Positions 6,087-38,852 of a stretch of 64,000 bases of DNA are shown here, in pieces (position 1 is the first letter of the stretch; each line of letters begins with the position of its first letter). The notes below the pieces were generated by a model. It searched no databases, was not told where the DNA came from, and saw only the letters and a list, made by a program, of their open reading frames with translations. Origin of the DNA: Thermoplasmata archaeon (GTDB lineage: Archaea; Thermoplasmatota; Thermoplasmata; Lutacidiplasmatales; UBA184); the NCBI GenBank assembly GCA_021817605.1, contig JAKAUN010000013.1:62001-126000 (forward strand), written 5' to 3'. The translations under genes and the position numbers were made by a program.

Positions 6087-6307
6087 CCTCCGCCACCGCG
6101 AGGCGCCTCGGAGCCCTCGGTCCGTCCGCCTTCCGTTCCCCGAGCGGAACGGAAACGGAGAGAGGGTGGGCTCGGGACTCTCTCTCCCGCCCTCCCCCGG
6201 CGCGCCTCGCCATCGGAGAATCCGCCGTGGCCGACCGCCGACGAACCCCGCGCTCGCACCCTGCCGAGGAGCAAGGCTCAAAGAGGGAGCTCGGTACGGA
6301 CCTTCGG

Positions 6308-6408
6308 GCTCCCGTAGTCTAGTGGTCAAGGATAGAGGCCTCTCGAGCCTCTGACGCGGGTTCAAAGCCGGGGGGACCGACCCCCCGGGGAAACTCCCGC
6401 CGGGAGCA
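6308..6408 (+). tRNA. tRNA-Glu (CUC) with a ~28-nt intron in the T-loop
   Basis: The acceptor strands GCTCCCG (6308-6314) and CGGGAGC (6401-6407) pair perfectly, with discriminator A6408 and no encoded CCA. The D-stem is GTCT/GGAT. The anticodon stem GAGGC/GCCTC encloses CTCTCGA, giving anticodon CTC at 6342-6344. T-stem halves GCGGG (6356-6360) and CCCGC (6396-6400) are separated by 35 nt instead of 7. Removing about 28 nt (6366-6393 or 6367-6394) restores a normal loop, TTCAACT or TTCAAAT, and a 73-nt tRNA. The exact junction is ambiguous because AAA flanks both ends. The intron holds a perfect 8-bp hairpin CCGGGGGG/CCCCCCGG (6368-6388). A textbook bulge-helix-bulge is not obvious by eye. 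Confidence 0.9.
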
Positions 6409-37243: not shown

Positions 37244-37794
37244 CAAAGCCCACGGCAGAGGGCCCAGCGTCGCCCGCGGAGCTGGCCGAGCTGCTGGTCG
37301 CGGCCGGCGCCGTTCGCTTCGGCCATTTCACTCTCACCTCCGGCGAGTCGAGCGACGTCTACATCGACGTGAAGAAGGCATGGACCGACCCCGGAACGCT
37401 TCGGCGGCTCGCCCGAGCCCTTGCCCAGCGCGTCGGCGGAGCCGATAGGCTGGCCGGCATGGAGCTCGGCGCTGTCCCTCTCGTGGTCGCGGTGGCGCTC
37501 GAGACCGGCCTGCCCTACGTGGTCCTTCGCAAGGAGGCCAAGCAGCACGGCACCCGGCAGGCCTACGAGGGCACCCTCGTGCGGGGGGAACGCGTAGTCC
37601 TCCTCGAGGACGTCACTACCACCGGCGGGAGCACCGCGCGTTCGGTCGGGATCGTCCGGGAGGCCGGGGCGCTTGTCGAAGAGGCCGTGACGGTCGTCGA
37701 CCGGGAAAGGGGCGCTCGCGAGCTCCTCGCCGGCCTCGGCGTCCGGCTCGAGAGCCTGGTGCGCCTTTCGGAGCTCAAGGGACCGAGGACGTGA
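37240..37794 (+). CDS. pyrE: Orotate phosphoribosyltransferase
   Basis: The enzyme makes OMP from orotate and PRPP in pyrimidine synthesis. The 184-residue protein has FTLTSGESSDVYIDVKKA, where orotate binds, YVVLRKEAKQHGT as the flexible loop, and the PRPP-binding motif RVVLLEDVTTTGGSTARS. GTG at 37240 overlaps the carS stop (GTGA). Confidence 0.93.
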   Translation: MTKPTAEGPASPAELAELLVAAGAVRFGHFTLTSGESSDVYIDVKKAWTDPGTLRRLARALAQRVGGADRLAGMELGAVPLVVAVALETGLPYVVLRKEAKQHGTRQAYEGTLVRGERVVLLEDVTTTGGSTARSVGIVREAGALVEEAVTVVDRERGARELLAGLGVRLESLVRLSELKGPRT

Positions 37795-38852
37795 CCGGAA
37801 CGCTCGGAGCGGACGGGTCGGTCCGTCTCGCGGTCCCCGAGGAGGCGAGCGCGATCTACGCACGCGGATTCTTCGGGGCTCCCCAGGGAGACGGGAGCCT
37901 CATCCTCGACCCCTACGAGGCCGTCTACCTTTCCGAGATGGCACGGGTCGAGGTCGCCGGCTCCCGGGCCGAGCCGGTCCTCTGGCCGACGGTCTTCCGG
38001 CGTGCGGTTAGGGCGGACCCCGGCTTTGCCGTGCGCTACCTCGTCTACCGCGACCTGCGCCAGCGCGGCTACGTCGTCCGGAGGGGGCCTCCGCCGGTGG
38101 TCTTCGCCGTCCTGCCTCGCGGCGGGACGCTCAACAAGACGCCGGCGAGGTTCTGGGTCGAGGCGCTCAGCGAGCGCGTTCCGTTCGACCTCGCGCGCCT
38201 CGTGCAGCTCTCCGATCGGGGGCTCGCGGCACGCAAGGCGATCTGGCTCGGCGTCGTGGACGAGGAGTCGGACCTCACCTACTACCGCGTGCGCCAGCCG
38301 ACACCCACCGGCGCGCTTGCCCCGGCGCCGCTGGCCACGCCGACCGAGGGCTGGCTGAGCGAGGACCGGGTGACGGTGCTCGTGCCGGAGGCGGTCGAGG
38401 AGCTCGGCCGCCACCTGGCCTACGGCAGCCGGGTCGGGCATCGCCTCGAGCTCAGCCTCATCGAAGCGGCTCACCTGGTCTGCTCGGGCCAGCTCGAGCT
38501 GCGCGAGTCACGCAGCGGCCGAAGGGTCCCCCTCGATCGCCTCGTCCGACGGGCCCACCGGCTCGACCCGAGGTTCTCCGAGAGGCTCGCCGCCTACGAG
38601 GAGCTGCGGGCGCGTCGCCTCGTGGTGAAGACCGGGTTCAAGTACGGCGCGCATTTCCGCGCGTATCCGCGCAACCCGGAGAGCGCGCACGCCCGCTACC
38701 TTGTCCACGCGCTTCCCGACGACCACGTCTCGACCTGGCCGGAGATCGCCGGGGCCGTGCGGGTCGCCCAAGGGGTCCGCAAGGAGTTCCTGCTCGCCAG
38801 CGTCGGCCGCGGGCGCGTGCGGTTCCTCTCGCTCGAGCGGATACGGCCCTGA
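37791..38852 (+). CDS. endA: tRNA-splicing endonuclease EndA, two-repeat (alpha2) type
   Basis: The enzyme cuts archaeal tRNA introns. At 353 residues it holds two tandem copies of the EndA unit, as in homodimeric alpha2 enzymes of Archaeoglobus and Thermoplasma. The C-terminal half has the catalytic triad Y292 (GAHFRAY), H300 (HARYLVH) and K331 (VRKEFLL). The N-terminal half contains the degenerate unit (RRGYVV-like RQRGYVVRRG and TPARFWVEAL) without the full triad. GTG overlaps the pyrE stop. Its obvious local substrate is the intron-bearing tRNA-Glu at 6308. Confidence 0.92.
   Translation: MTGTLGADGSVRLAVPEEASAIYARGFFGAPQGDGSLILDPYEAVYLSEMARVEVAGSRAEPVLWPTVFRRAVRADPGFAVRYLVYRDLRQRGYVVRRGPPPVVFAVLPRGGTLNKTPARFWVEALSERVPFDLARLVQLSDRGLAARKAIWLGVVDEESDLTYYRVRQPTPTGALAPAPLATPTEGWLSEDRVTVLVPEAVEELGRHLAYGSRVGHRLELSLIEAAHLVCSGQLELRESRSGRRVPLDRLVRRAHRLDPRFSERLAAYEELRARRLVVKTGFKYGAHFRAYPRNPESAHARYLVHALPDDHVSTWPEIAGAVRVAQGVRKEFLLASVGRGRVRFLSLERIRP

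Follow-up and report, generated by a model that had tools for sequence, protein, structure and literature searches.

The tRNA-Glu(CUC) gene at positions 6308-6408 of the window (the whole 64,000-nt stretch of DNA that was analysed) is interrupted in its T-loop by a 28-nt insert, which, judged from its sequence and predicted fold, is very probably a functional intron. We hold it highly probable that this is a functional single-copy gene, that its intron, located between tRNA positions 59 and 60 in a bulge-helix-bulge (BHB) motif of 3-4-3 geometry, is spliced by proteins, namely an alpha'2-type EndA endonuclease and the RtcB ligase, and that it belongs to a set of introns inherited throughout a family of archaea. 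Position 59/60 is a listed site of non-canonical introns in archaea (PMC4090602). The T-loop introns described here are thus a known kind of element in a known position, and it is their abundance that is unexpected for the lineage and for the enzyme type. They constitute a clade-wide variant, not a new category.

The anatomy of the gene was read directly from the sequence, and it agreed with the original prediction, a tRNA-Glu(CUC) with a 28-nt T-loop intron, in description and in exact coordinates. The gene has all four stems (acceptor, D, anticodon and T), and its anticodon is CTC. The acceptor stem (6308-6314/6401-6407) has perfect pairing throughout and is followed by the discriminator A at 6408. 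The two halves of the T-stem, GCGGG (6356-6360) and CCCGC (6396-6400), also pair perfectly, and lie 35 nt apart, as predicted. The elements of the gene are the following:
6308 to 6366, + strand: 5′ exon of tRNA-Glu(CUC), tRNA positions 1-59, with anticodon CTC and ending in TTCAAA; conserved in the Glu orthologues of the family
6361 to 6364, + strand: exon strand of the BHB central helix (T54 T55 C56 A57), pairing with 6389-6392
6365 to 6367, + strand: 5′ bulge, A58 A59 ^ G, with a predicted cut between 6366 and 6367; the bulge has 3 nt in 13 of 13 introns of the genome and in relatives
6367 to 6394, + strand: 28-nt intron at 59/60, GCCGGGGGGACCGACCCCCCGGGGAAAC; excision gives a canonical T-arm, and the BHB layout is common to 13 tRNAs of the genome
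6368 to 6388, + strand: inner intron hairpin, stem 6368-6375/6381-6388 (8 bp), loop 6376-6380; compensatory changes among orthologues
6389 to 6392, + strand: intron strand of the BHB central helix (GGAA), pairing with 6361-6364
6393 to 6395, + strand: 3′ bulge, A C ^ T60, with a cut between 6394 and 6395 predicted from the BHB register
6395 to 6408, + strand: 3′ exon, comprising T60, the 3′ strand of the T-stem, the 3′ strand of the acceptor stem and the discriminator A73 (sequence, fold)

In silico excision of 6367-6394 restored the standard seven-base T-loop TTCAAAT and a 73-nt tRNA, which ARAGORN folded into a complete cloverleaf. In the unspliced gene the 3-4-3 BHB is formed with the T-stem on the outside and the intron hairpin on the inside. 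The hairpin was correctly predicted to have eight perfect base pairs (CCGGGGGG-ACCGA-CCCCCCGG). In the RNA the central helix consists of two U-A pairs, one C-G pair and A57 facing G; the four standard central pairs that occur in part of the intron set (mainly in G57/C and A57/U introns) are thus absent from tRNA-Glu(CUC). Only one of 20,000 shuffles of the insert reached an equal number of central and inner pairs at the predicted register. An insert containing a BHB of this geometry should be an intron cut by splicing endonuclease. As had been foreseen, a plain tRNA search misplaced the gene: when presented with the unspliced locus, ARAGORN forced a defective 73-nt tRNA at 6307-6379, and Rfam reported 29.1 bits, against a cut-off of 29, with the wrong 3′ half. 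Since plain tRNA finders misplace or miss such genes, annotations of these soil archaea, and quality scores that use tRNA counts, can be wrong.

The genome (1.75 Mb in 16 contigs, listed as 100% complete) was searched for tRNA genes with RF00005, which returned 42 loci, many of them weak or truncated matches. Individual reading of the loci, combined with a custom covariance model search (gap-free, padded alignment), showed that site 59/60 is occupied by an intron in at least 13 tRNA genes: Asn, Arg-UCU, Arg-UCG, Glu-CUC, Gln-CUG, Ala-GGC, Gly-UCC, Asp, His, Lys-UUU, Ser-GCU, Ser-GGA and Ser-CGA. About 20 of the 44 tRNA genes found bear introns, mostly a single intron at a single site. The T-loop introns are 26-38 nt long and have no common sequence beyond the motif. 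The custom model gave at least 74 bits to the nine genes on which it was modelled and at most 58.9 bits to uninterrupted tRNAs; the doubly interrupted Lys gene scored 59.5 bits, and the three Ser genes, which have long variable arms, 47-52 bits. In the nine modelled class-I genes 94.3% of the structure cells were paired, compared with 62.3% in shuffles and 32-51% in slid structures. The inner helix of the 13 introns had on average 5.15 of 6 pairs at the predicted register versus 1.8-3.2 off register, a range that leaves out registers sliding along the same helix. The expectation that an intron outside the canonical position would be unusual in Thermoplasmata holds for the literature; that this intron is one of at least 13 in the genome had gone unnoticed.

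The RF00005 search is lossy at its first stage (Pro-GGG and Pro-UGG were missed and recovered by the custom model only), therefore uninterrupted copies were checked separately by BLAST of spliced sequences against the whole genome. For none of the nine tRNAs tested, Glu(CUC), Asp, Asn and His among them, did this reveal an uninterrupted copy. The interrupted genes themselves were matched, in alignments that stopped at the T-loop; all remaining matches were to other isoacceptors or were short fragments. For Glu(CUC) this was the search that the original prediction had called for, and its outcome favours the predicted intron over a pseudogene. The sole detected genes for tRNA-Asp, tRNA-Asn and tRNA-His are all interrupted at 59/60, so that, barring copies in unassembled sequence, translation requires removal of the T-loop intron. 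With essential tRNAs interrupted and uninterrupted copies not found, splicing is almost certainly functional. The models used did not detect genes for tRNA-Ile(GAU) or tRNA-Leu(UAG); as the first stage is lossy, these are possibly present, perhaps with several introns.

The distribution of the introns was determined in a sample of 391 genomes of the phylum, counting matches of the custom model at E <= 1e-11. In the family to which this genome belongs, strong matches were present in all 26 genomes, which represent seven genera, with 5-9 in each. Outside the family 28 of 365 genomes had any match; these usually had a single one, and never more than four. Those relatives that are named are metagenome-assembled genomes. 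The recurrent isotypes in a genome of a different genus (G414) are Arg-UCU, Arg-UCG, Glu, Gln, Asp, His, Asn and Ala, and this recurrence of the isotype set suggests that the set is probably old. The exons of the Glu orthologues have a mean identity of 98.9%, whereas in the inner helix both partners of a pair change, with pairing mostly retained. Compensatory changes among orthologues thus preserve the structure, as is expected of an archaeal BHB tRNA intron; the orthologues are phylogenetically related, and covariation counts overstate the number of independent events. The family ancestor probably already had the T-loop intron set, which was then inherited with fast-changing hairpins and fixed splice geometry.

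Most of the introns outside the family are in tRNA-Arg(UCU), and the central helix there mostly has full G57-C pairing. Single tRNA-Arg(UCU) T-loop introns with a full G57-C BHB were seen at loci L193, L187, L188, L200, L201, L209, L211 (family f7) and L164 (f5). The tRNA-Arg(UCU) intron of other Thermoplasmata families may be the oldest of the class. Matches outside the family, such as that in the initiator tRNA-Met of one genome (G049), were read individually, which confirmed that sporadic T-loop introns elsewhere are real. The endA gene of the genome is closest to those of Thermoplasmata metagenome-assembled genomes including AcS1-67, SubAcS and UBA184, which bears out the earlier assignment of the DNA to Thermoplasmata. 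Genomes named AcS, SubAcS and UBA184 were placed in the order Lutacidiplasmatales (PMC9287336). By its endA relatives the family appears to match Candidatus Lutacidiplasmatales (Thermoplasmatota), a lineage of acid soils. The word 'intron' is absent from the paper describing the order, in which tRNAscan-SE 2 was run in archaeal mode; that run may well have detected these genes, which then went unremarked (PMC9287336). By means of a BHB model tRNAscan-SE 2 detects non-canonical introns, and Crenarchaeota and Thaumarchaeota account for most of the gains (PMC8450103). We found no report for the lineage in the literature on Thermoplasmata with tRNA introns (subscription journals and GtRNAdb lay outside the scope of the search).

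An element of the motif that varies in a regular way is nucleotide 57 and the intron base facing it. Among 102 distinct T-loop intron examples parsed from the retrieved loci, G57 faces C in 37 of 44, whereas A57 faces G in 44 of 58 and U in 8 of 58. The dependence of the facing base on position 57 gave Fisher p values of about 1e-19 (C) and 2e-15 (G), which overstate independence, the sequences being related. In the Asp and Asn orthologues nucleotide 57 and the facing intron base change together. In this genome most introns of the G57 class have four standard central pairs. The A57-type introns, including that of tRNA-Glu(CUC), are not textbook 4-bp BHBs: their fourth pair is an A facing a G, possibly a purine-purine closing pair.

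The same window encodes the candidate enzyme, a link that the original prediction, right about the intron, had not drawn:
37791 to 38852, + strand: endA, tRNA-splicing endonuclease, 353 aa, fused alpha'2 type with two PF02778/PF01974 repeats (domain search, alignment, predicted fold)

It is the only EndA gene that the domain search detected in the genome, and there is one gene for the RtcB ligase. EndA consists of two fused N+C repeats in a single chain, and it matches the A. fulgidus EndA and the M. kandleri EndA fusion construct over the full length. The fold was predicted with high confidence (pLDDT 93.3), and its best structural matches were 5X89 (TM 0.86/0.90) and 2GJW (TM 0.78/0.89). The positions of the catalytic Tyr, His and Lys are retained in the C-terminal half. 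In the N-terminal half (residues about 105-130) a motif, PRGGxxxKTPxxxWVxxxSER, is strongly conserved across Thermoplasmata and shortened in A. fulgidus EndA. In the alignment EndA has no CSL or ASL insertion: the segment AYGSRVGHRLELSL has the length of wild-type A. fulgidus EndA, whereas the CSL chimera 3P1Y has about 10 extra residues at this loop site. By these comparisons EndA is of the alpha'2 type and lacks the crenarchaeal (CSL) and ARMAN (ASL) loops, insertions with a conserved Lys beside the active site that are tied to broad specificity.

The following mechanism would account for these features. In the transcript T54-T55-C56-R57 of the T-loop would pair with the last four intron bases preceding the 3′ bulge, and the 3-4-3 BHB would be assembled from the T-stem (outside), the central helix and the intron hairpin (inside). 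A homodimer of the alpha'2-type EndA (37791-38852) would then cut each bulge behind its second nucleotide (A59^intron, intron^T60), whereupon RtcB would join the exons to yield the normal 73-nt tRNA. Homodimer assembly, cleavage at exactly these sites and ligation are what we infer from the motif and from the presence of the two enzymes.

Could the insert be something other than an intron? Poor scores from plain tRNA finders are what a disrupted pseudogene would give, i.e. a copy of tRNA-Glu that a small insertion has disrupted while a functional gene resides elsewhere. No second Glu(CUC) gene was found in the genome, however, both exons are intact to the last pair, and the same site is interrupted in 12 further tRNAs, including the only detected Asp, Asn and His genes. 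The interruption is moreover found throughout the family with conserved exons, and we regard the pseudogene as extremely unlikely. The T-loops of tRNAs are frequent attachment sites and a common integrase target, and the insert is a hairpin; it might therefore be the scar of a mobile element integrated at the T-loop. This is scarcely credible in view of inserts that vary between 26 and 38 nt within the genome, share no sequence beyond the motif and yet all fit one BHB register. The orthologues, for their part, diverge by paired substitutions, which together with the single register points to selection on RNA structure. Other identities were rejected: at 28 nt the insert is far too short for a group I intron, a permuted or split tRNA is ruled out by halves that are adjacent and in order, and intron transposition between tRNAs, as in Thermoproteales, is unsupported, the 13 introns sharing no sequence beyond the motif.

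A real intron might also be removed by more than the alpha'2 EndA alone, for example with the help of an unrecognised second subunit of broad specificity. In favour of such a subunit, the alpha'2 enzymes of the literature are described as narrow in specificity (PMC4033280, PMC12397907), and the A57-G motifs deviate from the textbook BHB. Against it, only one EndA gene emerged from the domain search of the genome, the 3-4-3 BHB is the geometry recognised by EndA, and most introns of the G57 class have four standard pairs. We consider such removal very improbable and prefer splicing by the alpha'2 EndA and RtcB.

This preferred reading touches on the accepted picture, in which non-canonical tRNA introns go with broad-specificity endonucleases, (alpha-beta)2, epsilon2 or alpha2 with a CSL-type loop. 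The alpha4 and alpha'2 enzymes have been described as cutting canonical BHBs only (PMC4033280, PMC6379350, PMC12397907). A family in which essential tRNAs (Asp, Asn, His) are interrupted and the enzyme is of a loop-less alpha'2 type offers a natural test of the endonuclease-specificity rule. Either the position is free provided that the 3-4-3 motif is kept, or the alpha'2 enzyme of the family has widened in specificity. Tentatively, and with somewhat less than even confidence, we suggest that the loop-less alpha'2 endonuclease co-evolved in this family with dedicated T-loop BHB substrates, in which the fourth position depends on nucleotide 57, as G57-C or as an accepted non-Watson-Crick A57-G. 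If true, the family would have arrived at widespread non-canonical tRNA introns independently, with neither of the loops (CSL, ASL) that are held necessary.

The introns of Thermoproteales (Sugahara et al. 2008; PMC4090602) are similar in being short, in lying outside 37/38, including at 59/60, in having BHB-type motifs and in affecting many genes per genome. They occupy many positions, often with relaxed motifs, whereas here 59/60 is dominant and the 3-4-3 geometry uniform; similar intron sequences recur between their tRNAs, whereas the sequences described here are unrelated; and their endonucleases are (alpha-beta)2 enzymes with CSL, in contrast to the alpha'2 enzyme without it. Korarchaeum, which like the present genome combines a fused alpha2-type endonuclease with non-canonical tRNA introns, was singled out in 2014 as the one alpha2 archaeon to have such introns (PMC4033280). 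Its enzyme was described with a CSL-type loop, whereas the present EndA has no insertion there. In the wetland Asgard Atabeyarchaeia and Freyarchaeia (PMC11291895), also uncultivated soil lineages, non-canonical tRNA introns were recently found genome-wide. There they affect 92-95% of the tRNA genes, often with several introns per gene, compared with about 20 of 44 genes and mostly one intron here, and the phylum is different. The alpha'2 EndA enzymes of A. fulgidus and Thermoplasma acidophilum (2GJW, 1RLV, 2OHC) resemble the present one in chain architecture and fold, and that of A. fulgidus also in the loop length at the CSL site. Their specificity is listed as narrow (PMC6379350), whereas the presumed substrates here are many T-loop BHBs, over half of them A57-G.

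Apparent introns were also seen at other sites of the genome. The initiator-type tRNA-Met, Arg-GCG, Pro-UGG and Lys-UUU genes have apparent D-loop introns; the D-loop intron loci are G000:C11:84080-84182 (L021/L050), G000:C12:78912-79019 (L031/L048), G000:C12:102540-102646 (L162) and G000:C11:10134-10275 (L047). In tRNA-Lys-UUU the D-loop intron and a T-loop intron occur in one gene. In the tRNA-Trp gene (G000:C8:105144-105223 region, L039/L049) the anticodon loop seems to contain a long intron with C/D-box-like sequence, a feature shared with other euryarchaea.
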